Source: Tenacibaculum tangerinum (GTDB lineage: Bacteria; Bacteroidota; Bacteroidia; Flavobacteriales; Flavobacteriaceae). From it: 64,000 nucleotides of DNA. How positions within the stretch are numbered: position 1 is the first letter of the stretch; every line of letters starts with the position of its first letter. This document shows positions 44,690 through 63,620 of the stretch, piece after piece. A program made the position numbers and the translations under genes. The notes below the pieces were generated by a model, which saw only the letters and a program-made list of their open reading frames with translations, made no database searches and had not been told where the DNA came from. The DNA is taken from NCBI RefSeq assembly GCF_029853675.1, contig NZ_CP122539.1:1357001-1421000 (forward strand), in the 5' to 3' direction.

Positions 44690-44920
44690 GCCGTAGTATC
44701 AGCGACCCATATCGTGGTGTTGACGGAGCATGCCGTGATAGCTGCGCCCCATGCCGTAGTATTAGCGGAGCACGCGGTGATAGGTGCGCTCCATGCCGTG
44801 GTGTTAGCGAAGCATGCCGTAGTATCTGCGACCCATGCCGTAGTATTAGCGGAGCATGTCGTGATAGCTGCAACCCATGCCGTGGTATTAGCGGAGCACG
44901 CCGTGATAGCTGCGACCCAT
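44690..44920. repeat. 21-bp GC-rich tandem repeat, 11 units
   Basis: Exactly 231 bases = 11 x 21. Units alternate between two forms (GCCGTAGTATTAGCGGAGCAC and GCCGTGATAGCTGCGACCCAT, with substitutions). The composition is strongly GC-rich against an AT-rich background. Both strands are open. The plus strand would read heptads of HAVVLAE / HAVIAAT type from an ATG at 44657 to a stop at 44978, but no start signal, signal peptide or known family supports a protein. It occupies part of the 44465-45249 gene-free stretch. Confidence 0.9.
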
Positions 44921-46752: not shown

Positions 46753-47327
46753 ATGGAAATATTATATTATTTGATAATAGTTTGCTTGATAGGGTTTATG
46801 ATTATTGCAAACTATGATGGTTTATACTTACATCTTTGGAAGTAAGCGAATTGTTTAATAGAAATGAAAGTGTATTTGAGCACAAAACACATACAACAAG
46901 GGCTATTTTATTTCCTCTAATACTTTGGCTTTTATTTGTAAATGTAGATTCTATTAGTTTTTGGTTAGGAATAACTTTATTTATTATTGACCTTATTGTA
47001 TTAGGGATTGATGCTTTTTCAGAAAAAGATAGTAGAAAATCAATTGGAGGCTTACCAAGATGGGAATATATTTTACATCTTTTTGTAAATAGTTTTCATT
47101 TTGCATCAATCCTTTTAGTTATAGCTACAAGAATAGAAATAACTGAATTTAATATAAAAATTAATGAAACTTTAAATAATAGTTTCGGACAGCAACTAAC
47201 AAAAACTATAGCAGTTAATATTATCCCTGGTGCAATTCTAATGGCTCTTACTCACCTTATATTATTGCATCCAAAAGGAATTCAAATTTGGAAATTTATT
47301 AGAAATAGAAACAAGCAAAGCAGGTAA
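46753..47327 (+). pseudogene. Membrane protein following arsM, probably frameshifted
   Basis: MEILYYLIIVCLIGFMIIANYDGLYLHLWK is read from ATG 46753 and stops at 46845 (sequence shown in parts: MEILYYLIIVCLIGF, DGLYLHLWK). An overlapping frame continues with ELFNRNESVFEHKTHTTRAILFPLILWLLF and four further membrane segments to 47327. The two halves read as one protein (LYLHLWK-xELFNRNESVFEHKTHT) of about 190 residues, so a small indel near 46840 is likely. The stop TAA at 47325 lies inside the left box of an attC-like site. Confidence 0.6.
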
Positions 47328-47452
47328 CAAAGTATAAAAATAATAGCGGGTAAAGTGCCAAATTTAAAGCAAGTATCTTTGTACAAAGTTTAGTGCTAAG
47401 CTGAAAGTAAAGAGCCTTGAAATCCGCTACTATTCTTATACAAAACGTTGCC
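47323..47452 (+). other. attC-like recombination site 1
   Basis: The left box GGTAACA (47323-47329) is followed by GTATAAAAATAATAGCGG (47332-47349). Its near-perfect complement CCGCTACTATTCTTATAC is at 47424-47441, then AAAACGTTGCC (right box at 47446-47452). About 130 bp overall with a spaced, imperfect palindrome, as in attC sites. The preceding gene stops within the left box. Confidence 0.7.
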
Positions 47453-47577
47453 CACAATTTAACCACCTTTTCGCTAGGACTAATAGTTATTGATTTTGAT
47501 TAAATTTTATTCTTCCCGTGAAACTGAAATTCATACTCTTCTGTATTATTAAATTATATTTGCCTATTTATATTTAA

Positions 47578-50034: not shown

Positions 50035-50573
50035 GGTAGCTGATGCACAACCCCCAAATTTCAAAAAATGGAATTCATTTTAAAGCTATGTAAGGGCTTT
50101 ATTTAGAACGAAGCCAAAATTTTTAACTCCTTATTTTGCTTTTTTCTGAGCTTAAAACGAAATTTATTAAGTGATATCGTACTTTTTTTAACCAAAACAC
50201 AAAAGCAACCGCTTTGGCCTCAGTTTTAGTAGACTTACCCAAGAATTTTAATAGTTTTTTAATGTTGTATGCAGCCCCAGCCATGAGCATGCACTTGTTC
50301 GCCCCATCGATACCCCTAACATTTACTTTGCGCAAGCCCATATACTGCGTGAGAGTTCCAAAAACAGGCTCCACAATTTAATCTACGATAAAAGTTTTCT
50401 TGGGGTACATGCGCACTCAACTGAAAGGAAGTGAACAGTTTTTCTTGATACGTTTTTTTGACTTGCATGATTAAATATACGATTTATACATTTGAAAAAC
50501 AACAACTTAACAGAAAAAAAACTCTTCTATAATGCAAAAAATAAATCGTATATTAGGGTTGTACAACAGGCAC
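50035..50573. mobile_element. attC-inserted repeat element, copy A (IS1182-type remnant)
   Basis: The left end is GGTAGCTGATGCACAACC. The right end GGGTTGTACAACAGGCAC matches the complement of the left end at about 14 of 18 positions, so terminal inverted repeats are retained. Inside is a minus-strand transposase fragment, and a perfect 14-bp inverted repeat (AATATACGATTTAT at 50474 / 50541). It is a deletion derivative. Confidence 0.7.
50123..50374 (-). pseudogene. IS1182-type transposase, C-terminal fragment
   Basis: EPVFGTLTQYMGLRKVNVRG...GANKCMLMAGAAYNIKKLLKF is the C-terminal DDE block (with the catalytic Glu in VEP) of one IS1182-family subgroup. No N-terminal part remains. Nearly the same fragment occurs at 62020-62274. 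Confidence 0.8.
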
Positions 50574-50713
50574 AATGGCTATAAGTAATTGCTAGTTTGA
50601 GTCTACTTACGAAAGTCCTCGCAGACTTTCTATCTGTGATTTATTTGCTAGATTAGTGCTTAAACACACCACAAATTATACACAAACACGTTGCCAGTAA
50701 TTAAAAAAACGAA

Positions 50714-51322
50714 ATGAAAAAAATGAAAAAAACTATTTACTTTTTAGCAATTTTGACAATTATAAGTTGCGAAGTAATTGAAATTAATTGTAAAGAATTT
50801 GATAAATCTAATGTCATTCTTGATTACTCAATGTTCCAAGAAGAAAATGACAATTATAATTTTATTAATCAACAAAATGACACAGTAAAATTATCTTCCT
50901 CTGGTAGATATTTTTCAGAAAGTTATATTGAAAGATGTGGAGGTTTTGCAGACCCGAATTGTGATTGCTTTAGTTCTTTTGAGGAAATATACAGAGTAAA
51001 CGATTCTTTATTTTTTAGAACACAAATCACAGCTTCGATTTTGGAAGATGAATCTGAATTTATTGACATAGATTACTCTGTAAATTATTCTAGATATAGT
51101 GAAAGGAGATTAATTAATAACAAAGAAATAATAACAAATAAATTTAATGAAATTACGCAAGAGGAATTAATCCTAGATAATTATAAATTTACAAATGTTA
51201 TTGAACTAAACTTGATTAAGCACGAAAGAGATAATTCTCTAATTAATCAGTTAATAATAAAGAAAAATGAAGGCTTAATAGCTTTTATGAAAGATGGAAA
51301 AATATACTTGAAGGAAAAATAA
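50714..51322 (+). CDS. Lipoprotein of unknown function (cassette gene)
   Basis: About 200 residues; starts ATG 50714 or 50723. The lipobox is LTIISC. The mature part has CGGFADPNCDCFSSFEE and no recognised family. It begins 19 bases after an attC-like right box and its stop is five bases before another left box (GCTAACA), i.e. a one-gene cassette layout. Confidence 0.65.
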   Translation: MKKMKKTIYFLAILTIISCEVIEINCKEFDKSNVILDYSMFQEENDNYNFINQQNDTVKLSSSGRYFSESYIERCGGFADPNCDCFSSFEEIYRVNDSLFFRTQITASILEDESEFIDIDYSVNYSRYSERRLINNKEIITNKFNEITQEELILDNYKFTNVIELNLIKHERDNSLINQLIIKKNEGLIAFMKDGKIYLKEK

Positions 51323-51336
51323 CTACTGCTAACACC

Positions 51337-51707
51337 GGTAGCTGATGCACAACCCCTAAATTTCAAAAAAATGGAATTCATTTTAAAGCTATTTAAGGGT
51401 TGTATTTAGAACGAAGCCAAAATTTTCAACTCCTTATTTTTGTTCTTTTAGAAAGCTTACAACAAAAGATGTTAAGTAATAGTGTATAGTTTATTGTAAA
51501 CATCCTCAAAAAAAGGACAATTATTAATTCGAATTTACTAACGTAAAATTCAAAGGGTGATTCTAAAAAGCAACAAAAAGTGTAATTAAGCTATACAACC
51601 AAGTAAGATTACCTGTATCTTTAAGTCATAAAACAACGAATATGGTATATTTAAAAACAGCGTAAATTCAATTTTTAACCTGTAGCCATATTTCAGGACT
51701 AAACATT
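51337..51707. mobile_element. attC-inserted repeat element, copy B
   Basis: It starts GGTAGCTGATGCACAACC two bases after AACA of the left box GCTAACA (51328-51334). It runs about 371 bp through an IS3-end-like segment (AAACATCCTC...GGACAATTATTAATTCG) to TTTCAGGACTAAACATT. No attC right box follows. A hairpin AATATGG...CCATATT lies near the right end. No coding capacity. Confidence 0.75.
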
Positions 51708-51722
51708 AAAAGAAACTCTCAG

Positions 51723-52874
51723 ATGAAGATTGCAATCTTGTTGTTATTATTTAGCATTTCTTCCATAACATATGGACAGAAAATAGACACTCTGACTTTT
51801 TATTCAAAAGCCTTTCAAGAAGAAAGAACTGTATATCTTCACAAACCAGAATTTTACAAATACAAATCGGATTCAGTAAAGCTTCCTGTAATCTATTTAC
51901 TTGATGGACAACATGAATGGTTTGTTAACCCGATACTTTCAGACATAAAATATTTACAATATACGCATGAAATCCCCAATGCAATAGTTGCTGTTGTTCC
52001 TCATAAAAATCGGAATAAAGAATGTGGTATTGTAGATTTAAAAAGCGAATTACCACTTGATGCTTTTATAACGAACGAATTAGACAAAGAGCTATTAAAA
52101 AAGTATAACCCAAGTGATATAAAAGTAATTATTGGACACTCTTTTTCAGCATCATTTTCACTCTATTCATATTATAACCATCCAGACTACTACACTTCTG
52201 TAATAGCAAATACACCACTTGATGAATTGGAATTGTTGGTTAGCAGTTTTCAAGGGAATAATAAAATAGAAAAAAGTAAAATTTCTATAAGCATAGGTGG
52301 AATATCAGGGAACAAAGACTATTACCACCGGAAAAAATATAATGAACTAAAAGAAAAGCATCCAGACTTTTTTAATTCAATCAACATCTTTGAAGCCGAT
52401 TATTCTGCACATAATGCTGTGCCAATTGTATCGACATCTACTCTTCTAACAAGAGTCTTTCAAAATTTTAGAGATAGATACACGCATATTGCAAAAGTCA
52501 ATGAAGAATATAAATTGATTTCTGTACCCGAAACACCAGAAAATGAAGTTGAAAAGGTAATATCAGCATCAAAAATTGGAGCTTCTTTTTATCCACCTGA
52601 ATTAGCAGAAATTAATGGAATTGCTTCAAGATACTGGAATAGCGATTATAATGATATAACTACAGAAATTTATAAATTGGGAATTAGATATTATCCTAAT
52701 TATTTTGAGTTTTATTTGTCACTCTACGAACTAACTAGAGATAAGGACAAAGAAGAATCCAGAGAATACTTGGAAAAGGCAGAGTCACTTTTAAATAGGA
52801 TTGAGAGTGATTGGGAAGGTAAAAAGGCAATTATTGAAGAAATAAAAGCTGAAAAAATAAAAAACGGCTGGTAA
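51723..52874 (+). CDS. Secreted esterase-like alpha/beta hydrolase (cassette gene)
   Basis: 383 residues with a signal peptide (IAILLLLFSISSITYG). An esterase D/Fes-like fold: LPVIYLLDGQHEW, the nucleophile elbow GHSFSASFSL near residue 140, and His in DYSAHNAVP. C-terminal ~100 residues are helical and TPR-like. It starts 16 bases after element B and its stop TAA is inside the next left box (GGTAACA). It could act on siderophore or acyl esters; substrate unknown. Confidence 0.82.
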   Translation: MKIAILLLLFSISSITYGQKIDTLTFYSKAFQEERTVYLHKPEFYKYKSDSVKLPVIYLLDGQHEWFVNPILSDIKYLQYTHEIPNAIVAVVPHKNRNKECGIVDLKSELPLDAFITNELDKELLKKYNPSDIKVIIGHSFSASFSLYSYYNHPDYYTSVIANTPLDELELLVSSFQGNNKIEKSKISISIGGISGNKDYYHRKKYNELKEKHPDFFNSINIFEADYSAHNAVPIVSTSTLLTRVFQNFRDRYTHIAKVNEEYKLISVPETPENEVEKVISASKIGASFYPPELAEINGIASRYWNSDYNDITTEIYKLGIRYYPNYFEFYLSLYELTRDKDKEESREYLEKAESLLNRIESDWEGKKAIIEEIKAEKIKNGW

Positions 52875-52878
52875 CAAT

Positions 52879-53245
52879 GGTAGCTGATGCACAACCCCCA
52901 AATTTCAAAAAACGGATTTCCTTTTAAAGCTACCTAAGGGCTTTATTTAGAACGAAGCCAAAATTTTTAACTCCTTATTTTCTTCTTTTAGAAAGCTTAC
53001 AACAAAGGATGTTAAGTAATGGGGTACATTTTTTTGAACATCCCCAAAAAATAGTACAGTTATAAATTCCATTTTACGAACGTCAAATCCAAATGGTGAT
53101 TCTGAAAAGCAACAAGAAATGTAATTAAATTATACAACAAAATAAGATTACCTGTACCTTTAGGCTATAAAACAACAAATATGGTATAGTTGAAATCAGC
53201 GTAAATTCAATTTTAAACTGTAGCCATATTTCAGGACTAGACATT
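52879..53245. mobile_element. attC-inserted repeat element, copy C
   Basis: It starts GGTAGCTGATGCACAACC after left box GGTAACA (52870-52876) and ends TTTCAGGACTAGACATT. It reads GGGTACATTTTTTTGAACATCCCC where copy F has a transposase fragment between GGGTACATTTTTAACC and TGAACATCCCCC, so it looks like an internal deletion of an F-like form. The remaining 53246-53369 shows no gene. Confidence 0.75.
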
Positions 53246-53369
53246 ACCTTCATATTCCATGAAAAAAAATACTTAATTTATGGAAGTGTTTTACGAAAGG
53301 ATTAAATTAAAAAAGTAGTATTGACTTTTAATAATTACAAAAAGGTTACTAAGAATTCTAAGATATTGT

Positions 53370-54062
53370 ATGAATAAAGACGACATTAAATCAAAGTTAA
53401 TTAAGGAGAATTGGGACTTAATCAGTTCAACTTTTGATAAAGCACTAAAAGAGTTTAAAAAATGTAAACAAAAGGGGGGAGTTGATAACGAATGGAAATA
53501 TAACACGGTAATTGACGTACTACTTGAAGAATGGAATAGAATTTATCCTAATTATGTTTTATTACCTATTCAAGAAGAATTAAGAAAATTGTTTTTCAAA
53601 GTTCAATCTAAAGAGTTTGAGACAGAAAAAAACATTTCTTCAGTGATTGATGTTTTTTGTGTTTGGTATTACAACTGCCAATATTTTTATATTTTCATAG
53701 AGCCTTTTAATTTATCGGAACAACATGAAGAAAACCCTCGTTTTGAGATAAATACTAATAATGAAAATTTATTGTTACTAGAAATATTTGCTTCGATTTG
53801 GGATGAAATAAGCTCTATTGAAGATCCAGAATCAGGTGAATTTTGGGAATTAGATTTACCTGAGTTTTATGATACAGAACTAAACCTTTTACATTTTTTT
53901 GTTTCAAAATGTTGGAATGATGTAAAAACTATAACGAAAACTACAGTTAAAGCGATTATGAATGAATCTACTGGTGCAGGTGAAATCTATTATTTAGATG
54001 AAAACAGATATTTAAAAGATGAAGATGAGTGGAAAAAACTAACTACACACAACAAAATATAA
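53370..54062 (+). CDS. Cytoplasmic protein of unknown function (cassette gene)
   Basis: 230 residues, acidic, Trp-rich, no signal peptide (MNKDDIKSKLIKENWDLISS..., SIWDEISSIEDPESGEFWELDLPEFYD). No recognised domain. The stop TAA (54060-54062) lies inside a short attC-like site, which supports a cassette origin. Confidence 0.65.
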   Translation: MNKDDIKSKLIKENWDLISSTFDKALKEFKKCKQKGGVDNEWKYNTVIDVLLEEWNRIYPNYVLLPIQEELRKLFFKVQSKEFETEKNISSVIDVFCVWYYNCQYFYIFIEPFNLSEQHEENPRFEINTNNENLLLLEIFASIWDEISSIEDPESGEFWELDLPEFYDTELNLLHFFVSKCWNDVKTITKTTVKAIMNESTGAGEIYYLDENRYLKDEDEWKKLTTHNKI

Positions 54063-54097
54063 ACCCCATTAAAACGGTGTTTATACAAAACGTTGTA
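54048..54097 (+). other. Short attC-like site 3
   Basis: CACAACAAAATATAAACCCC, a short loop, GGTGTTTATACAAAACGTTGTA: left box CACAAC, arms TATAAACCCC / GGTGTTTATA, right box CGTTGT. About 50 bp, the size of a compact 59-base-element-type attC. Confidence 0.65.
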
Positions 54098-54200
54098 ACC
54101 AATTTCCCACATAAAGAAACTTTATTAATTTCTTAAGCTAACGAGTGAAATTTTTAGAGTAATTTTAAAGAAAAGAATTACCGTTAGTCTGAATTAAAAA

Positions 54201-54854
54201 ATGAGCCGAATAACAATCATATTTCTTATTCTAATTTTAAATTTTTCTTGTTCTGAAAAGAATAAAAACAAAGCCTTGATAAAAGAAAACAAAATTCTAA
54301 AAACTAATATATCGGAATTGGAGAAAGAAAATGTTGAATTAAGTAAACTAAACTCGATTCTTAAATCATCGAAATCTGAAAATGTGGAAAGTAAAAACAA
54401 AGAATTAAGAAATTCTAAAGTAATAAAAAAACTCGACGAACGTTTTTCAAAAGACACGTTGGATTTAGAAAAATATGGAAACGAATACATATTTGAGAGA
54501 ACTGTTGAGTTGACTAAATTAGATAATAAACTATTTGCAGAAGCTTTTGGAAATATTAGAGAGAAATTGAACTCTTTTGGATATTCGGCTTTTAGCATTT
54601 GTGACGGAGAATCTTTACCGCTTGAAATGTGTAATTGCACAGATTCAATATATATTGTTATTGAACCAGAAGAACTTGGGGAAGATTACGAATTATATAG
54701 AATTGGTTATTTCTATAATGTTGACTTAATTTCATTGGAACGAATTGAAAAAGAAGATTTTGAATTCGATTTTGAATTAACTTTTGAACATGGAAAATAT
54801 CCAAGAAAGAAAGAGAAAATTAGCTTGAATAAAATGAAATTAGAAAAATACTAA
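54201..54854 (+). CDS. Lipoprotein with coiled coil (cassette gene)
   Basis: 217 residues. The lipobox is LNFSC, followed by a heptad coiled coil (about 25-85, NISELEKENVELSKLNSILK) and a globular acidic domain with ICDGESLPLEMCNCTDSIYIV. No known family. The stop is one base before the left box GCCAACA. Confidence 0.6.
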   Translation: MSRITIIFLILILNFSCSEKNKNKALIKENKILKTNISELEKENVELSKLNSILKSSKSENVESKNKELRNSKVIKKLDERFSKDTLDLEKYGNEYIFERTVELTKLDNKLFAEAFGNIREKLNSFGYSAFSICDGESLPLEMCNCTDSIYIVIEPEELGEDYELYRIGYFYNVDLISLERIEKEDFEFDFELTFEHGKYPRKKEKISLNKMKLEKY

Positions 54855-54864
54855 TGCCAACACC

Positions 54865-54935
54865 GGTAGCTGATGCACAACCCCCAAATTTCAAAAAACG
54901 GATTTCCTTTTAAAGCTATGTAAGGGCTTTATTTA
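54865..54935. mobile_element. attC-inserted repeat element, copy D (truncated)
   Basis: GGTAGCTGATGCACAACC after left box GCCAACA (54856-54862). Only the first ~70 bases match the other copies (to GGGCTTTATTTA), after which an IS3-like end begins. Confidence 0.65.
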
Positions 54936-55060
54936 TGTAAGCTTCCCCAAAAACAGGACAGCTATAAATTCGAATTTACTAACTTTAAACTCAAACTGTC
55001 ATTATGAAAAGTAGCAAATTTAGCGAGAGTCAAATCATTAAGTCGCTCTCTAAAAATTAA
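54936..55060 (+). mobile_element. IS3-family left end and transposase A remnant
   Basis: TGTAAGCTTCCCCAAAAACAGGACAG looks like an IS3-family end (shown in part: TTCCCCAAAAACAGGACAG). At 55004 an ATG opens MKSSKFSESQIIKSLSKN and stops; MKxSKFxExQIxK is the usual start of IS3 OrfA proteins. Copies B, C, E and F carry more degenerate versions of the same segment. Confidence 0.65.
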
Positions 55061-55068
55061 AAATTACG

Positions 55069-55413
55069 ATGAAAAAGATTATAAAATTAATTGGAATAAT
55101 ATCTTTAATAAGCAGCTATCTAATATTGATATGGAATTTTAAGGAGTATGGATTTCGTGCAGGCTTTAATCAATTGTTTGACTACGCTTGGTTGTTCGGT
55201 GTAATCAGCCTGATTATAAACTCAATTTACGCAATATTAATTGATTTAGATAAAGTTACATTCAGTATTTTTGGAACTTGTGGATTGATATGGATAGCGC
55301 CATTTGTGATTGATATGGAATCTTTAAGTGGGTTTCCTTCACTTATAATATACCTTATAATTGGAATTCACATCCACATAAAAAAGAATAAAAACAGTGT
55401 ACAACAACGGTAG
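55069..55413 (+). CDS. Small membrane protein (cassette gene)
   Basis: 114 residues, four hydrophobic segments (LIGIISLISSYLILIW, YAWLFGVISLIINSIYAILI, FGTCGLIWIAPFVI, LIIYLIIGIHIHI). No known family. The last codons run through the attC left box (TACAACA) and the TAG stop is made by the GGTAGC of repeat element E, so the present C-terminus may differ from the ancestral one. Confidence 0.6.
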   Translation: MKKIIKLIGIISLISSYLILIWNFKEYGFRAGFNQLFDYAWLFGVISLIINSIYAILIDLDKVTFSIFGTCGLIWIAPFVIDMESLSGFPSLIIYLIIGIHIHIKKNKNSVQQR

Positions 55414-55777
55414 CTGATGCACAACCCCTAAATTTAAAAAAAATAGAATTGATTTTAAAGCTATGTAAGGGCTTTATTTAGAACGAAGCCAAAGTTTTTA
55501 ACTCCTTATTTTCTTCTTTTAGAAAGCTTACAACAAAAGATGTTAAGTAATAGGGTATAGTTTATTGTAAACACCCTCAAAAAAAGGACAATTATTAATT
55601 CGAATTGACTAACGCAAAATTCAAACTATTATCATGAAAAGCAACAAAAAATGTAATTAAGCTATACAACCAAGTAAGATTACCTGTATCTTTAAGTCAT
55701 AAAACACCGAATATGGTATATTTAAAAACAGCGTAAATTCAATTTTAAACTGTAGCCATATTTCAGGACTAAACATT
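55409..55777. mobile_element. attC-inserted repeat element, copy E
   Basis: GGTAGCTGATGCACAACC after left box TACAACA (55400-55406), ending TTTCAGGACTAAACATT. About 369 bp. Its last base is immediately followed by the ATG of the next gene. Confidence 0.75.
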
Positions 55778-56272
55778 ATGAAAAACGTATTGAAATTCAT
55801 ATTGATTTTACAAATTAGTTTTCTCAATGCTCAAGAAATTAAACCTAAATATCTAAAAGGTACTTGGAGATTTGAATCGGAAATTGACTTGCGAACTGAA
55901 AAAGAAAAATCTGAAGATATTGCTGTATGTATTAATTATATAAAAACTGAAAATGGTGCAACAGGGAACCCAGATTTAACTTTTAGGAAAAATAGTAAAT
56001 TTAAAATGTATTTCAATAAAGATTATGTCGAAATTGGAGATTATGAAATAGATAAAAATAACACTATAATATTTTGGCGAAGATTTTCAACAAAAACATT
56101 TGAAGATATAATACTCGGAGAAGCCTTTTTAAAACAAAAAAAGATTTTCGAAAAAGAGTGTGGAAAGTTTTATTATACATATCAGAAAAAATTCAAATTA
56201 AAATATGTAAGCAAAAATAAAATTGAATTTTTCACTTATAAAGGATATAGTGTTTGGAAAAGAATAAAATAA
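55778..56272 (+). CDS. Secreted small protein, lipocalin-like in layout (cassette gene)
   Basis: 164 residues with a signal peptide (LKFILILQISFLNAQ). YLKGTWRFESEIDLRTEK..., DLTFRKNSKFKMYF and VEIGDYEIDKNNTIIFW give the strand pattern of lipocalin-like domains, with Cys at CINYI and KECGKFYY. Unconfirmed. The stop lies five bases before the left box GGGCAAC of a complete attC-like site. Confidence 0.6.
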   Translation: MKNVLKFILILQISFLNAQEIKPKYLKGTWRFESEIDLRTEKEKSEDIAVCINYIKTENGATGNPDLTFRKNSKFKMYFNKDYVEIGDYEIDKNNTIIFWRRFSTKTFEDIILGEAFLKQKKIFEKECGKFYYTYQKKFKLKYVSKNKIEFFTYKGYSVWKRIK

Positions 56273-56277
56273 CTGTG

Positions 56278-56406
56278 GGCAACACGTTGTGTAATTAATG
56301 GCTGGTTCTCGCCTACTTACGAAAATCCTCTCGGATTTTCTATTCGGTTTTTATTTGCTAAATTAGGTGCCGAAACACACCACTAATCATACACAAATAC
56401 GTTGGC
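56278..56406 (+). other. attC-like recombination site 4 (complete)
   Basis: Left box GGGCAAC (56278), arm GTGTAATTAATGGCTG, inner hairpin GAAAATCC / GGATTTTC, arm ACCACTAATCATACAC, right box CGTTGGC (56400-56406). 129 bp. The two arms pair with few mismatches. The centre is closely similar to that of site 2. Confidence 0.75.
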
Positions 56407-56495
56407 AACAAGCTAAAACAGCCAACTGCACAAAAGCAAAGAGTGCTATCGCACACATTGCTTTTTTTTGCCAGTGCTAAAAATAAAATGAATAA

Positions 56496-57893
56496 ATGTT
56501 ACTAAACATAACTACGACACATAAACCAGCAATAGACTTAGGATATTTGTTGCATAAACATCCCGATAAATTGCAATCCATTGATTTGTCGATTGGAAAA
56601 GCACATATATTTTATCCTGAAAATTCAGATGAAAGAACTACCGCTTCCTTATTATTGGATATTGACCCAATTGATATGGTGAGAGGTGGCAGAAACTTAT
56701 CAGGAAAAGGCTTTTCTCTTGGACAATACGTTAATGACAGACCTTATGTGGCTTCTTCATTTATGAGTGTTGCCATTGCTAAAGCGTTTTCAACCGCAAT
56801 GAATGGTAAGTGTAGTAAAAAACCCGAATTGGTAGATATTAAAATGCCATTTGAAGTTACTATTTCAGTATTACCTGTCCCAAAAGGCGGAGAAATCCTT
56901 ATTCGAAAGATGTTTGAACCTCTTGGTTATAAAGTGGTATTGGAAAGACATATTTTGGACAACAAATTCGTGAATTGGGGAGACAGTAAATATTTTACAT
57001 TAAAACTAAATCACACCACTACTCTTCAAGAATTGTTGTCTCATTTATACGTAATGATTCCAGCACTGGACAATGACAAACATTATTATGTAAGTCAGAA
57101 TGAGATTGATAAACTACTAGAAAAAGGAAAGGGTTGGCTATCTGACCATCCCGAAAAAGAACAAATTACAAGACGCTATCTTTTTAATCTTAACTCTCTT
57201 TCAAGACAGGCATTGGAGCGATTGAATGATGATGACGAATCAAAGGAGTTGCAGGAAGAAACAGATTTAGAGGAAGTAAAGAAAAAAGAGACTTTACATC
57301 AACAAAGATTGTCATTGGTTTTGAGTAAATTAAAAGAGTCAGGTGCTAAAAGCGTACTTGATTTAGGCTGTGGAGAAGGAAAACTCATTCGAATGTTGTT
57401 AAAGGAAAAACAATTTAGCAATATAACTGGAATGGATGTGTCTTACCAAGAATTAACAAAATGTAAAGACAGATTACATTGGGACGAAATGGCACCAAGA
57501 CAAAAAGAACGAATCAATCTGTTTCAAGGTGCTTTAACCTATAAAGACAAACGATTGGAGGGATTTGATGCAGCAGCAATTGTAGAAGTAATTGAACACC
57601 TTGATGAGAATAGGTTAACATCTTTTGAACGAGTTGTATTTGAATGTGCTAAACCCAAAACAGTTGTTTTAACAACACCGAACGGTGAATACAACGTACT
57701 TTTTGAAAATATGGAAGCTGATACAATGCGACATACAGACCATAGATTTGAATGGTCAAGAACAGAATTTGAAACTTGGGCAAAAAAAGTAGCTGAAACT
57801 AATAATTATAATGTGCAATTCTTACCTATTGGCGAGGAAGACAAAAAAGTAGGAGCACCTTCACAAATGGCAATTTTTGAATATGGAAATTAA
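56496..57893 (+). CDS. hen1: 3'-terminal RNA ribose 2'-O-methyltransferase Hen1 (bacterial)
   Basis: 465 residues, full length for bacterial Hen1. The N-terminal half is the bacterial-specific domain (MLLNITTTHKPAIDLGYLLHKHP). The C-terminal half is the SAM methyltransferase with VLDLGCGEGKL (about residue 288) and the metal-site EVIEHLDENRL with downstream TDHRFEW. It marks the 3' end of a cleaved RNA with 2'-O-methyl before Pnkp reseals it, blocking re-cleavage by the same ribotoxin. It overlaps pnkp by 11 bases. Confidence 0.94.
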   Translation: MLLNITTTHKPAIDLGYLLHKHPDKLQSIDLSIGKAHIFYPENSDERTTASLLLDIDPIDMVRGGRNLSGKGFSLGQYVNDRPYVASSFMSVAIAKAFSTAMNGKCSKKPELVDIKMPFEVTISVLPVPKGGEILIRKMFEPLGYKVVLERHILDNKFVNWGDSKYFTLKLNHTTTLQELLSHLYVMIPALDNDKHYYVSQNEIDKLLEKGKGWLSDHPEKEQITRRYLFNLNSLSRQALERLNDDDESKELQEETDLEEVKKKETLHQQRLSLVLSKLKESGAKSVLDLGCGEGKLIRMLLKEKQFSNITGMDVSYQELTKCKDRLHWDEMAPRQKERINLFQGALTYKDKRLEGFDAAAIVEVIEHLDENRLTSFERVVFECAKPKTVVLTTPNGEYNVLFENMEADTMRHTDHRFEWSRTEFETWAKKVAETNNYNVQFLPIGEEDKKVGAPSQMAIFEYGN

Positions 57894-60456
57894 AGTACCC
57901 GAATTATCATTAGTATTACTTATTGGTGCTTCTGGTTCAGGAAAAAGCACTTTTGCTAAAACGCATTTTGGCAAACACGAAGTCGTTTCTTCTGACGTGT
58001 GTAGAGGAATTGTATCGAATGACGAGAACAGTCAGAGTGCGACAAATGATGCCTTTGATGTACTGAACTTCATTGTTGGAAAAAGACTAAAAAACGGGCA
58101 TTTAACTGTTGTTGATGCTACAAACGTACAAACCGAAGCCCGAAAAGGATTAATTAATCTTGCAAGACAATATCATACCTTACCAGTTGCCATTGTTTTA
58201 GATTTACCTCAAAGAATTTGTGAAGATAGAAATGCAAGTCGAGAAGATAGAAACTTTGGAAATCATGTTATTAGACAACAAAAACAGCAACTCAAAAGGT
58301 CGATAAAAGGACTAAAAAGAGAAGGCTTCAGAAAGATATACGTTTTAAAAAGTGAAGAAGAAGTCGATTCCGTAACTGGAATCGTTAGAGAAAAACTCTA
58401 CAACGATAAAAAAGAACTTCACGGACCTTTTGACATTATTGGAGATATTCACGGTTGCTATGATGAAACAATTTCACTCTTAAAAAAACTCGGGTATATC
58501 ATTAATTCAGTGGATAATGATGGAAACAATTACGGATTAGAAATAAAACATCCTGAAAATAGACAAGTGATATTTTTAGGTGACTTAGTGGATAGAGGTC
58601 CGAATTCGCCAGCGGTTCTAAAATTAGTAATGAGTATGGTTAGAAGCGGTTCAGCTCTTTGCGTTCCTGGAAATCACGACCTAAAACTTCAAAAGAAATT
58701 AAACGGAAAAAATGTTCAGTTGAAACACGGTTTAGCTGAGACAATGGAACAATTGGAAAACGAGTCGCCTGAGTTTATAGCAGATGTTAAAGAGTTTTTA
58801 TACAGCCTAATTAGTCACTATATTTTAGATGATGGTAAGTTAGCTGTTGCACACGCTGGTATAAAAGAAGAAATGCAAGGGAGAGGCTCTGGTGCAGTTA
58901 GGTCATTTTGTTTATATGGAGAAACTACGGGAGAAATTGACGAATTCGGTTTACCTGTCAGGTATAATTGGGCTTCTGAATATAGAGGTAAAGCCAAAGT
59001 TATTTATGGACACACACCTGTTCCAAAAGCAGAATGGCTTAATAAAACTATTGATATTGACACAGGTTGCGTATTCGGTGGAGAACTTACAGCCTTACGT
59101 TATCCCGAAGAAGAATTAGTTTCTGTTAAAGCAGCCAAAGTATATTCAGAACCTATAAAACCATTGGAATTAGAAGTAGAATCTAACCTAAGTCATCAAC
59201 AAGAATATGATGATTTATTGAATATTGATGATGTTATAGGAAAACGAATCGTGCAAACACGCCTGCGAAATAATTTGACCATCAGAGAAGAAAACTCTAT
59301 TGCAGCATTAGAAGTAATGAGTCGTTTTGCCATCAATCCTAAATGGCTCATTTATTTGCCACCAACAATGTCACCGTGTGCCACAAGTGAATTACCGAAT
59401 TACTTGGAGCATCCAGAGCAAGCTATTAACTATTACAGGAAAAGAGGAGTTGAAAAAATAGTTTGTGAAGAAAAGCATATGGGTTCACGAGTCATTTTAG
59501 TGCTTTGTAAAGATGAAGAGACGGTTTTAAATCGTTTTGGAATAGAAAATGAGAGAATTGGAATTTGTTATACAAGAACTGGACGAAACTTTTTTAATGA
59601 TAGTACCATAGAAAAAGAATTTTTGAGCAGAGTTCAAATTGCATTAACCAAATCTGGGTTTTGGGATAAATTTAAGACTGATTGGGTATGTTTAGATGCA
59701 GAATTAATGCCTTGGTCTTCAAAAGCCCAGTCGTTATTACAAGACCAATATGCCTCCGTTGGTTCTTCTGCCAAAAACTCGTTAACAGCGGTTGAGCAAG
59801 TACTACAGAAGACAAAAAACAGAGGAATTAAAGATATTGAAACTATTTTAGATAAATTTAGCTACAAGAAAAAAGCGGTTTCTAAATTCATTGATGCTTA
59901 TAGAAATTATTGTTGGGATGTTAATTCTGTGGATGATTACAAATTAGCACCATTTCATATTCTTGCGACGGAAGGAGCTGTACACATTGATAAAGACCAT
60001 CACTGGCATATGGAAAACATCAAAGAAGTTTGCCTTGCTGATGAAAAAATATTCAGAATTACACCTTACAAAGTTGTTGAGACAAACGACAAAGAGAGCG
60101 TGCAGAAAGCCATTGATTGGTGGACAGAGATGACAGAAAAAGGTGGAGAAGGAATGGTCGTTAAATCTTTTGATTTCATTTCATATGGTAAAGAAGGGCT
60201 ATTACAACCTGCCGTTAAATGTAGAGGAAGTGAGTATCTAAGAATAATTTATGGACCAGAATATGACTTACCAGAGAATATGCAAAGACTTAAAAGCAGA
60301 GGACTGTCAAGAAAGCGTTCTTTGGCTTTGAGAGAATTTGCATTAGGAGTAGAAGGACTGGAAAGGTTTGTAAGAAAAGAACCTTTAAGAAGAATACACG
60401 AAAGTGTTTTTGGAGTATTAGCATTGGAGAGTGAAGATGTTGACCCAAGATTATAA
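57883..60456 (+). CDS. pnkp: Bacterial polynucleotide kinase-phosphatase-adenylyltransferase Pnkp
   Basis: 857 residues from ATG 57883 (MEIKVPELSL). Three modules: an N-terminal 5' kinase with P-loop GASGSGKS (residue ~15), a calcineurin-type 2',3' phosphatase with GDIHGCYDE (~187), GDLVDRG (~233) and GNHDLK (~264), and a C-terminal ligase-like adenylyltransferase with EEKHMGSR (nucleotidyl Lys near 530). With Hen1 it forms the bacterial RNA repair complex. It is followed by an attC-like site, so both genes sit in one cassette-like unit. Confidence 0.95.
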   Translation: MEIKVPELSLVLLIGASGSGKSTFAKTHFGKHEVVSSDVCRGIVSNDENSQSATNDAFDVLNFIVGKRLKNGHLTVVDATNVQTEARKGLINLARQYHTLPVAIVLDLPQRICEDRNASREDRNFGNHVIRQQKQQLKRSIKGLKREGFRKIYVLKSEEEVDSVTGIVREKLYNDKKELHGPFDIIGDIHGCYDETISLLKKLGYIINSVDNDGNNYGLEIKHPENRQVIFLGDLVDRGPNSPAVLKLVMSMVRSGSALCVPGNHDLKLQKKLNGKNVQLKHGLAETMEQLENESPEFIADVKEFLYSLISHYILDDGKLAVAHAGIKEEMQGRGSGAVRSFCLYGETTGEIDEFGLPVRYNWASEYRGKAKVIYGHTPVPKAEWLNKTIDIDTGCVFGGELTALRYPEEELVSVKAAKVYSEPIKPLELEVESNLSHQQEYDDLLNIDDVIGKRIVQTRLRNNLTIREENSIAALEVMSRFAINPKWLIYLPPTMSPCATSELPNYLEHPEQAINYYRKRGVEKIVCEEKHMGSRVILVLCKDEETVLNRFGIENERIGICYTRTGRNFFNDSTIEKEFLSRVQIALTKSGFWDKFKTDWVCLDAELMPWSSKAQSLLQDQYASVGSSAKNSLTAVEQVLQKTKNRGIKDIETILDKFSYKKKAVSKFIDAYRNYCWDVNSVDDYKLAPFHILATEGAVHIDKDHHWHMENIKEVCLADEKIFRITPYKVVETNDKESVQKAIDWWTEMTEKGGEGMVVKSFDFISYGKEGLLQPAVKCRGSEYLRIIYGPEYDLPENMQRLKSRGLSRKRSLALREFALGVEGLERFVRKEPLRRIHESVFGVLALESEDVDPRL

Positions 60457-60458
60457 CA

Positions 60459-60621
60459 GCCAACGCAATTTACAGCACATTGCAATCCTCGTTCCTGCGG
60501 TTGCAAAGAGCTGTATGACAATGCTGAAAGAAACAAATGAAAAGGAAAGCCAGCAGAGAACACTGTATATGAAATCATAACCGCCTATCGGCAGGCTACA
60601 CTTCATATACTCACCGTTGGC
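60459..60621 (+). other. attC-like region 5 after the RNA repair genes
   Basis: GCCAACG (60459-60465) begins one hairpin (TACAGCACATTGCAATCC / GGTTGCAAAGAGCTGTA). A more complete site follows: GAGAACACTGTATATGAA (from 60556), an inner CCGCC/GGCAGG stem, CTTCATATACTCACCGTTGGC (right box CGTTGGC at 60615-60621). The inner 66-bp part has a typical compact attC layout. Confidence 0.65.
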
Positions 60622-60648
60622 AACAATCTGGAAAAACTGAACAAAAAG

Positions 60649-61104
60649 ATGAAATTTAGAAAAGCGACAAGAAATGATGTTGCAATAATTGTGGAAATGA
60701 TTGCGGATGACGAACTTGGGAAAACCAGAGAAAATTTTCAGGTACCATTACCGAACGAATATCTTAACGCTTTTGAAAAAATAAACGCTGACCAAAATCA
60801 AGAACTAATTGTTGTCGAAAATGTAAACTCAGAAATTATTGGAACTTTACAGTTGTCCTTTATCCAATATCTCACCTATCGAGGCGGAATAAGAGCACAG
60901 ATAGAAGCTGTTAGGATCAGAAAAGACAAAAGAGGCCTCGGAATTGGAAAAACAATGTTTGAATGGGCAATTAATAGAGCAAAAGAACGGAATGCTCATT
61001 TACTACAATTAACGACTGACAAAAAAAGAACAAAGGCAATTAAATTTTACGAAGGTTTGGGATTTAAAGCAACTCACGAAGGAATGAAAATACACTTTAA
61101 ATAA
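60649..61104 (+). CDS. GNAT family N-acetyltransferase (cassette gene)
   Basis: 151 residues. RKATRNDVAIIVEMI starts the fold, the acetyl-CoA site is RIRKDKRGLGIGKTMFEWAI (R/Q-x-x-G-x-G/A as RGLGIG), and FYEGLGFKATHEGMKIHF closes it. Substrate unknown. It starts 28 bases after one right box and ends 12 bases before the next left box, a textbook single-gene cassette of about 0.6 kb. Confidence 0.9.
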   Translation: MKFRKATRNDVAIIVEMIADDELGKTRENFQVPLPNEYLNAFEKINADQNQELIVVENVNSEIIGTLQLSFIQYLTYRGGIRAQIEAVRIRKDKRGLGIGKTMFEWAINRAKERNAHLLQLTTDKKRTKAIKFYEGLGFKATHEGMKIHFK

Positions 61105-61115
61105 AAAAGCTAGTT

Positions 61116-61245
61116 GCCAACACCGTATAAAAATAATTGCTAAATTAGTGCTTAACTGAAGGGCGTTGCACTTTTGTTACCTCTGATTTTCCTGCGGAAA
61201 ATCCTCGCTCATAAAACCGCAACTATCTTTATACCAAACGTTGGC
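61116..61245 (+). other. attC-like recombination site 6 (complete)
   Basis: Left box GCCAACA, arm CGTATAAAAATAATTGC (61124-61140), inner hairpin GATTTTCC TGC GGAAAATC, arm GCAACTATCTTTATAC (61219-61234), right box CGTTGGC (61239-61245). 130 bp. The TTGCTAAATTAGTGCTTAA block is in the left arm here but on the right in sites 2 and 4. Confidence 0.78.
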
Positions 61246-61405
61246 TGTAATTAAAACAATCTTTAGTAAAAATCTAATCGTTTAAAGTCACCTAAATTGA
61301 TTGTCTAGTTCATGTCGTATTGATGTCATGCTTGGGTCAGGTAGCTGACAATAACAAACTATCTTCAAACATTACCTTTGCACCGAAATCAAAAAATTAT
61401 TAGAA

Positions 61406-61873
61406 ATGAATTCAAACAAAAGAAATCTAAGAGATATCAAAAAAATGAGATTAGAACGTCATTGGTCTCAGGAACAATTGGCTGAAATGAGCGGATTAAG
61501 TGTCCGAACCATTCAAAGAATTGAAAATGGTGAAAATGCAGGACTAGAATCTTTAAAATCATTAGCAGCTGTTTTTGAAACCAACATTGAAGATTCGAAT
61601 AAAAAAACAGAATTAGAACAGGTTAGAAAAGAGGAAGCCTATATTCAAAAATTAAAAGGGTTTTATAAACTTTTTGGTTTAGCAGTATTGAATTTGATTT
61701 TCTTCTTTTTTATTGCGATTAATGATTCAGATTCAGAAGGTTGGTACGTGTTTTTATATATGCTCATTTCTTGGATTGCTTTCTTAGGAATTTATTCCTT
61801 CATTAGTTTTGATTTTTTCGGGGAGGAATGGAAAAACAAAATGATTAAAAAGAAATTTGGTAATAAAAAATAA
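61406..61873 (+). CDS. XRE-type HTH protein with C-terminal 2TM domain (cassette gene)
   Basis: 155 residues. An N-terminal HTH (MRLERHWSQEQLAEMSGLSVRTIQRIENGENAG, shown in part; residues ~10-60) is followed by a 2TM domain (LKGFYKLFGLAVLNLIFFFF, GWYVFLYMLISWIAFLGIYSF). Likely a membrane-tethered regulator. The stop is five bases before left box GCCAACA, which carries repeat element F. Confidence 0.82.
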   Translation: MNSNKRNLRDIKKMRLERHWSQEQLAEMSGLSVRTIQRIENGENAGLESLKSLAAVFETNIEDSNKKTELEQVRKEEAYIQKLKGFYKLFGLAVLNLIFFFFIAINDSDSEGWYVFLYMLISWIAFLGIYSFISFDFFGEEWKNKMIKKKFGNKK

Positions 61874-62019
61874 CTACAGCCAACAATGGTAGCTGATACA
61901 CAACCCCCAAATTTCAAAAAAATAGAATTCATTTTAAAGCTATGTAAGGGTTGTATTTAGAACGAAGCCAAAATTTAACTCCTTATTTTCTTCTTTTAGA
62001 AAGCTTACAACAAAAGATG

Positions 62020-62274
62020 TTAAGTAATAGGGTACATTTTTAACCAAAACACACAAGCAGCTGCTTTGGCCTCAGTTTTAGTAGGTTTACCCAAGAATTT
62101 TAATAGTTTTTTAATGTTGTATGCAGCCCCCGCCATGAGCATGTACGTATTCGCCCCATCAATACCTCTAACATTTACTTTGCGCAAGCCCATATACTGC
62201 GTGAGAGTTCCAAAAACAGGCTCCACCTGGCTCTGCAGTATCCCCTTGGAACGTTTGCCTAAAAGAGTGAACAT
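62020..62274 (-). pseudogene. IS1182-type transposase C-terminal fragment (second copy)
   Basis: LQSQVEPVFGTLTQYMGLRK...GANTYMLMAGAAYNIKKLLKF is the same subgroup as the fragment at 50123-50374, slightly longer at the N side. The upstream part is missing. Confidence 0.8.
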
Positions 62275-62480
62275 CCCCCAAAAACAGGACAGTTATAAAT
62301 TTCAATTTTCGAACGTGAAATTCAAAGGGTGATTTTGAAAAGCAACAAAAAGTGTAATTAAGCTATACAAACAAATAAGATTACCTGTATCTTTAGGCTA
62401 TGAAACACCGAATATGGTATATTTAAAAACAGCGTAAATTCAATTTTTAACCTGTAGCCATATTTCAGGAATAGACAGGT

Positions 62481-63543
62481 GATAGGGCAGCCGAAATACA
62501 GCTGCATATCGACAAACACAAAAAGCACCAACAAAAGTATAAAGCTATCCAAAAGCAATTAAAGCAGGACGAATCCTATGAAAACCCTCAAATATCCACC
62601 AGCGATCCCGATAGCAGACATCAAATTATCAGGGGCGCCCATTACCGAAATATGTTACACCGCACAAACAACTGTTGATGATAAGTACAAACTACTTGTG
62701 GATTTTAAAGTAACCAACGAAAACGACAAAAAAGCCATGGGCAACATGCTTCAAAGGGCTAAAACCATCCTCAGACCATCACACCTAATAACAGCGCTCT
62801 ACGACAAAGGATATCATACCGGAAGCGAGTTTTATTGTGCAGAGAAATTAGGCATACACACTCTAGTAGCCATACCCGCTATTGGTAAAAGCAGCCAAGC
62901 ACCAGATTCAAAATATAACCTTGAAAACTTTACATACCACAAATCATCAGACATCTACACTTGCCCTGAGCAACATACCCTAACAAGCAATGGCAGTTGG
63001 TATAAAGGAAGAAACTATTAAACAATACAAAACTAAAGCCTGTAAAAGCTGCCCAGTAAGAACGCTATGCACCACAGCAAAAATCAATGGTAAGATTATA
63101 CAACGCAGTGAATATGCTCCCTATATAGAAAACAATGCCAAACGAATTAAAACTAGTGGAGAACTGTACAAAAAGAGGCAAGCTCTGGTAGAGCACCCCT
63201 TTGGAACCATAAAGCGACAATGGGGATTTGACCATATCATGACCAAGAAGGGAAAGGAAAGGAAAGCGCTAGTGCCGATGTTGGGCTTATAGCCTTAGCC
63301 TATAACCTGAGAAGAATAATCAATATCATGGGATTCAGTACCCTTACAAAAGAGGTATATTGTCTTGTTAAAACACATTTTGCCGTTATTGTAAGCCTAT
63401 TTGGGGCTATATACCTTAAAATAAAAGCTTTACAAACTCAAAAGATACATTTTGAAACAATTCAAGAACCAAACCTTTTTACTAAAAAAATGACGCATTT
63501 ACCTAAAAAATCAATCATTTATGCTACTTTTGAGACAGACTGA
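62481..63543 (+). pseudogene. IS1182-type transposase of a second subgroup, multiply frameshifted
   Basis: Pieces in three frames join up: DRAAEIQLHIDKHKKHQQKY...ISTSDPDSRHQII, then EICYTAQTTVDDKYKLLVDFKVTNENDKKAMGNMLQRAKT (in part) with the DDE-type ALYDKGYHTGSEF, then CKSCPVRTLCT (zinc-like Cys) and VEHPFGTIKRQWGFDHIMTKKG, then ADVGLIALAYNLRRIINIMG. At least three shifts are needed and the N-terminal third is missing. The VEHPFGTIKRQW block differs from the VEPVFGTLTQYM type on the other strand. Confidence 0.8.
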
Positions 63544-63620
63544 CGTTATGTGCAAGCGAAAAAAAAGAAACTGTAACAATAACCCATTTTTTTAATCTTT
63601 AGAAGAAACCATAAAAACAA

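Follow-up and report, generated by a model that had tools for sequence, protein, structure and literature searches.

Repeats at attC-like hairpins of Tenacibaculum tangerinum as probable site-specific insertions of an IS1182 lineage

What kind of element enters a gene-cassette array again and again, always at the same position of an attC-like site? The question is raised by a 64,000-nucleotide stretch of the Tenacibaculum tangerinum genome (contig NZ_CP122539.1, positions 1,357,001 to 1,421,000; hereafter the window), in which six copies of a repeat, at 50035, 51337, 52879, 54865, 55409 and 61888, each begin two bases past the AACA of an attC-like left box. A first description, made from the letters alone (the sequence-only reading), had pointed out these starts and boxes, had remarked that the gene-side sequence differs at each copy, and had proposed site-specific insertion into attC, possibly by an undescribed family of elements. 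The placement at left boxes is confirmed exactly as described, and site-specific insertion is supported. Very probably, these repeats represent degenerate and non-autonomous members of a lineage of IS1182-family elements, termed group A here, and they result from site-specific transposition in a single orientation into the attC-like hairpins of gene-cassette arrays.

The left end of the repeat occurs 43 times in the 3.61 Mb genome. Our pattern search tolerated up to three mismatches in 20 bases, so that more diverged copies would escape it, and did not require AACA; it returned 44 matches, the 44th lying on the other end of the element. AACANN precedes 42 of the left ends and AATANN the remaining one (G000:1629088), so that a genome-wide collection of copies yields none away from a box. 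A blast search of the genome gave at least 40 copies (40 of 62 candidates scored, all 40 matching), all of them among the 43. Over 81 bases, the left ends share 89-100% identity with the query. The differing gene-side sequences also extend to the whole genome: when 244-bp left flanks were compared by blast, 42 were distinct, the single duplicated pair being 84938 and 1310563. This excludes duplication of the entire box-plus-repeat block for nearly all copies, the sequence-only reading's own alternative, which holds for that one pair.

Among the copies displayed, alignment reveals a shared left part of about 140-170 bp, followed by the C-terminus of an IS1182 transposase (minus strand), by an IS3-like fragment or by other sequence. 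A protein search located this transposase C-terminus at 21 places in the genome, and the remnants in the window match PF13751. Copies that contain the C-terminus can extend to a second end of the element, GGGGTTGTGCAACAGGC, beyond which come ACA and an arm of the hairpin. Fifteen such ends are present in the genome, 13 of which are paired with a left end at a distance of 406-542 bp, and in these paired copies the attC-like hairpin resumes with its other arm beyond the second end. The terminal inverted repeats agree, by eye, over CTG[AT]TGCACAACCCC. In the window, the non-autonomous element at 50035..50571 (plus strand) has both ends: its left end follows the box GGGCAACAAC, its right end reads ...TTGTACAACAGGC, and a C-terminal transposase remnant lies inside on the minus strand. 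The rest of the interrupted hairpin, arranged as L''-loop-L'-R' box ACGTTGCC, occupies 50572..50700 on the plus strand. If the target duplication is ACANNG, base 50035 is itself part of it.

Full-length relatives are found in other genomes. When 249 genomes of the same family were searched at the DNA level, 15 matched, including the window's own, and five of these 15 encode six transposases of 505-525 residues that have the same ends and lie at the same kind of site. Where the element is intact, it is filled by its transposase frame. Two of the six transposases reach 337.6 bits each against the NCBIfam IS1182 model (cut-off 270) and contain the domains DDE_Tnp_1_6, DUF772 and DDE_Tnp_1. A scan of species genomes produced at least 540 relatives, the best 80 of which make up our set of related loci: 78 are from Bacteroidota, 67 of these from Flavobacteriaceae, with 32 named genera represented. 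An element end was visible on the N-terminal side at 78 loci, on the C-terminal side at 74 and on both at 72. We analysed 67 of the 72, covering 27 named genera plus 17 loci without a genus name; L126, L165 and L195 were left out for short flanks, L197 and L198 for a transposase gene inverted between the ends. L198 is a group A relative whose ends face the site as usual, yet with the gene inverted; only one flank is visible at L197.

These loci show how the element sits in its target. Toward the left (R'') box the element presents its GTARC.. end, toward the L'' arm its ..CAGGC end; the insertion point is between R'' and L'', and the 6 bp ACANNG are duplicated. TGTT is present at the R'' box in 63 of the 67 loci, and 61 pass a strict two-flank test (TGTT at the box plus TA at a fixed arm position), the exceptions being L125, L129, L132, L139, L153 and L170; by eye, only L129 and L132 have targets that are not attC-like. 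The target at L129 is a small palindrome, CTGTAAC.TGTT.GTTACAG by eye. In 29 of 67 loci (29 of 68 in an earlier run that included L198) both ends carry one and the same 6-mer, a count that none of 10,000 permutations reached (mean 6.8, maximum 17). One-orientation, site-specific insertion into attC-like sites is supported here and also across 27 other named genera.

Once the insertion is removed, the target is a covarying hairpin. A script rejoined the flanks so that the duplicated bases were retained once, and 22 of the 67 rejoined sites, picked for clear arms 117-125 apart, were aligned. Their consensus has 13 pairs, 11 of which show changes on both sides, a count unreached in 500 shuffles. 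Paired cells amount to 93.4%, a percentage inflated by the hand-picking of clear arms, vs 67.1% in shuffled alignments (none of 500 as high) and 23-48% when the arms are slid. A score for arm pairing with a free right arm separated real from shuffled sites weakly (8 of 67 above the 99% control); we therefore used a covariance model, R1, built from foreign rejoined sites, to search this genome, the related loci and 60 genomes of the same family. In 248.5 kb of this genome R1 detects 52 sites (E<=1e-3), five of them in the window. At ten of the 52 the left part of the match falls on a group A element end, as in the window at 50564-50700, and 42 are uninterrupted. Extended to the whole genome, the count is at least 76 (150 of 3442 candidates scored). 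Among loci that did not serve for training, an R1 site lies beside the element in 20 of 35 (E<=0.01, by eye; 55 of the 80 loci searched). At E<=1e-6, 54 of the 60 family genomes have at least one site and six have none; four have at least 54 each. More distant elements behave similarly: L205 and L206, whose transposases are 44 and 41% identical to the query, also lie at such boxes by eye, with R1 E values of 0.083 and 5e-5.

Several observations weigh against this interpretation. No full transposase was found in this genome, where the longest open frame at a match has 277 residues, and two strict searches for an intact copy (3 and 9 candidates scored) gave no match. The two NN dinucleotides agree in just four of the 13 paired copies here, and an exact 6-mer duplication is missing from 38 of the 67 related loci. 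Fifteen of the 35 non-training loci have no adjacent R1 site at E<=0.01, while L129 and L132 belong to the group A clade despite their different targets. Besides the effect of hand-picking on the paired percentage, one of the five measures of covariation, that of further pair types, was matched by 19 of 500 shuffles. In 14 copies, described below, the right half of the site is gone. A close transposase appears in just 6 of 395 genomes sampled evenly across the phylum (E<=1e-60, at most three candidates scored per genome), and none of the sequences examined offered an empty orthologous site.

How could degenerate copies have reached so many sites? We suggest that the short copies would have been mobilised by a DDE transposase that an intact copy formerly provided in trans. 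The enzyme may recognise a folded or palindromic site together with the AACA.NN.G box, and copies would therefore land after cassette genes and not inside them. Later cassette shuffling and homologous recombination among near-identical copies may have scrambled the duplications and produced chimeras, including those with a second group described below.

The alternative that survives best keeps the same element and the same targets and differs in what the transposase reads, namely the linear sequence YAACANNG.NTATA alone, the sites being hairpins for another reason. We regard it as possible, at somewhat longer odds than even. The strong conservation of box and arm letters among related loci is what such a mechanism would leave behind. 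However, all 43 copies enter the left arm and never its mirror image, the arm letters covary, and two other IS1182 members (L210 and L231, which served as controls) lie in the loops of palindromes, and IS1272, from the same family, replaces inverted repeats (PMC5678879). These points argue for folding and stop short of proving it.

Far less probable is the idea that the repeat is simply the body of a genome-specific attC, like the repeats of V. cholerae, carried along with cassettes by an integrase, the variable boxes then being R''. The left boxes do vary as R'' boxes would, the composite copies described below lie between cassette genes as an attC does, and the genome holds many attC-like sites as well as tyrosine recombinases. 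But the repeat carries pieces of a transposase, 13 copies have both element ends with the hairpin arm outside, and versions with a full transposase and a 6-bp duplication exist in other genera; for the copies with both ends, an attC body is refuted. Slightly weaker still, a scenario of one insertion, after which box and repeat were multiplied as a block through duplication or homologous recombination, would account for the 84938/1310563 pair and for the high identity of the left ends, and a few copies could still have come from it, but as the main cause it is refuted by the 42 distinct left flanks of the 43 copies, by the recurrence of the position in 27 other named genera and by the matching duplications at 29 of 67 loci.

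The preferred reading, group A transposition into attC-like hairpins, must also accommodate the IS3-like sequence. The sequence-only reading had seen IS1182- and IS3-like fragments in the repeats: the former is the element itself, whereas the IS3 piece is a passenger. Fourteen copies are composites of a group A left part and an IS3-like fragment, lacking the right half of the site. In the window, all on the plus strand, they are found at 51337..51705, where the next cassette begins right after, at 52879..53243 and at 55409..55775, along with a shortened left part that continues into a left IS3-like fragment at 54865..55060. The right end of a composite touches the next cassette, mostly within about 30 bases of what is, by eye, the probable start codon. 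The missing half may be due to an IS3-mediated adjacent deletion or to a recombination event at the composite end. We rejected the composite as a transposon in its own right, the right flanks showing no duplicate of the left ACANNG (by eye). IS3 as the targeting element was likewise rejected: of 19 IS3 right-end matches counted within the genome stretches examined, 14 have a group A left part 279-376 bp upstream and a fifteenth has it at 564. The remaining four comprise three weak matches and a good one, at 732468, that has no group A left part. Sequence following the IS3-like end at G000:732468 resembles a 42-bp tandem repeat (5.2 copies) at 44702-44920 of the window.

How does group A compare with elements already known? 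As the sequence-only reading had stated, its ends fit neither the IS1111-attC group nor the group IIC-attC introns. Members of the former (ISKpn4, ISPst6) reportedly combine a DEDD transposase with a seekRNA guide, whereas group A has terminal inverted repeats and a DDE enzyme; no DEDD transposase of the IS110/IS1111 type was found in the two intact relatives. Group IIC-attC introns resemble group A as mobile elements tied to integrons (PMC7923331), but they are retroelements, whereas intact group A relatives are filled by a transposase frame; Rfam group II intron models had no match at gathering scores in the window or in L053, L055, L057 and L062. Membership of the IS1182 family rests on a transposase score above the NCBIfam cut-off and on terminal inverted repeats surrounding the transposase gene. 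Some members of this family are said to target palindromes (PMC5678879). IS1272 of staphylococci shares the IS1182-family DDE transposase; it replaces an inverted repeat without target duplication, whereas group A enters one arm in a fixed orientation at one class of site, makes a 6-bp duplication and keeps the hairpin arm. The suggestion of an undescribed attC-targeting family is therefore to be divided: the targeting habit stands, with no earlier report of an attC-targeting IS1182 element found among the titles and abstract openings listed from the open-licence literature, but the element belongs to a lineage of a known family.

A second IS1182 clade, group B, uses the opposite side of the same sites. 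Its ends are CAGACTGTCTCAAAA...TTTTGAGACAGACTG, and the right end abuts the opposite (R') box. Exact matches to this end number 33, spread over 19 of 299 genomes; of the 31 that were read, 25 are followed by [ACT]CGTT, including all four in this genome (window 63528-63553; G000:850685, 1627291 and 1628662), three deviate by one base and three lack a box. Among loci with both ends readable, a 4-bp repeat, NCGT, is exact at both ends in L211 and L239 and has one difference in L241 and L163, so that group B probably inserts with a 4-bp NCGT duplication. A quick tree places B as one clade with A across from it, and IS1182 elements with other targets join both; A requires two changes, and long branches leave the order unsure. 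Two rows of this tree, L203 and L224, count as other: a loose pattern had initially put them in A, but their ends and flanks differ. As a control, eight copies of an element in genome G250, with ends AGGCTGTCTAAAAAGG, have neither a box nor an R1 match.

The two groups meet in the sixth window copy, a chimera at 61888..63542 (plus strand) that runs from a group A left end to a group B end. It comprises a group A transposase remnant on the minus strand (62020-62274), an IS3-like fragment reaching 62477, and, on the plus strand, what is left of a different IS1182-type transposase, of which 62990-63292 matches PF13751; the part at 62578-63021, which has no Pfam match, was assigned to this remnant by eye. 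The group B end TTTTGAGACAGACTG at 63528-63542 closes the chimera, and the right (R') attC-like box ACGTTATGTGC follows directly at 63543..63553, both on the plus strand.

Are the targets really attC? They follow genes, share one direction within an array and fold; like integron attC sites in cassette arrays, they are hairpins behind cassette genes with Y-AAC...GTT boxes and unpaired stem bases. The folded palindrome of an attC is thus present on the 22 chosen sites, with its 13 pairs and 11 double changes. The consensus core sites of attC, RYYYAAC and GTTRRRY (PMC3053210), are rarely encountered, in contrast: RYYYAAC in 2 of 39 left boxes and GTTRRRY in 3 of 38 right boxes read among the 42 uninterrupted sites (2 and 4 in a first count over all 52). 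We therefore speak of attC-like sites. The four uninterrupted sites of the window, all on the plus strand, lie at 47318..47457 (R1 E 6e-14), 56273..56411 (5e-19), 60551..60626 (a short one, 3e-5) and 61111..61250 (7e-15). Two attC-like sites flank a two-gene Hen1-Pnkp RNA repair operon (PF12623, PF16542) at 56496-60456, which sits as if it were one large cassette.

A search for an integron integrase gave ten matches in the genome, none above the TIGR02249 cut-off, below which all 14 controls also fell. Elsewhere in the genome, 19 attC-like sites stand in a row on the minus strand (G000:C1, 215.8-240.5 kb), just downstream of a tyrosine recombinase gene at 241,249-242,060. This gene has a TAG stop near its end, and its protein scores below the integron-integrase cut-off; among solved relatives XerA is best, and IntI4 (2a3v) aligns with E 7.7e-16 over residues 102-285. 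Compared with IntI, it seems to lack the integron-specific insertion. A C-terminal fragment of a similar recombinase gene lies at 842,608, directly before the copy at 843,392, and similar pieces are found near elements in L134, L148, L146 and L161.

Possibly, the attC-like hairpins found across Flavobacteriaceae belong to an undescribed integron-like system. The single complete integron that IntegronFinder 2.0 lists for Bacteroidetes is from Salinibacter (PMC9024848), a review counts Bacteroidota among integron-bearing phyla (PMC8618304), and no model for Bacteroidetes is among the 11 taxon models of PMC8352920. We see about equal reason to accept and to doubt the broader proposal of an unrecognised, widespread integron-like system in Flavobacteriaceae, with non-canonical attC-like hairpins and a tyrosine recombinase devoid of the integron-integrase insertion, on whose folded sites two separate IS1182 lineages, group A entering between R'' and L'' and group B at the R' crossover box, would be specialised parasites.

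If our reading of the repeats is correct, the IS1182 family, with two clades at two positions of the site, joins the short list of elements that hunt cassette sites. The many natural insertion records would then mark cassette sites in Bacteroidota, and both the reading of a folded hairpin by a DDE transposase and the identity of the recombinase that moves these cassettes would become testable.

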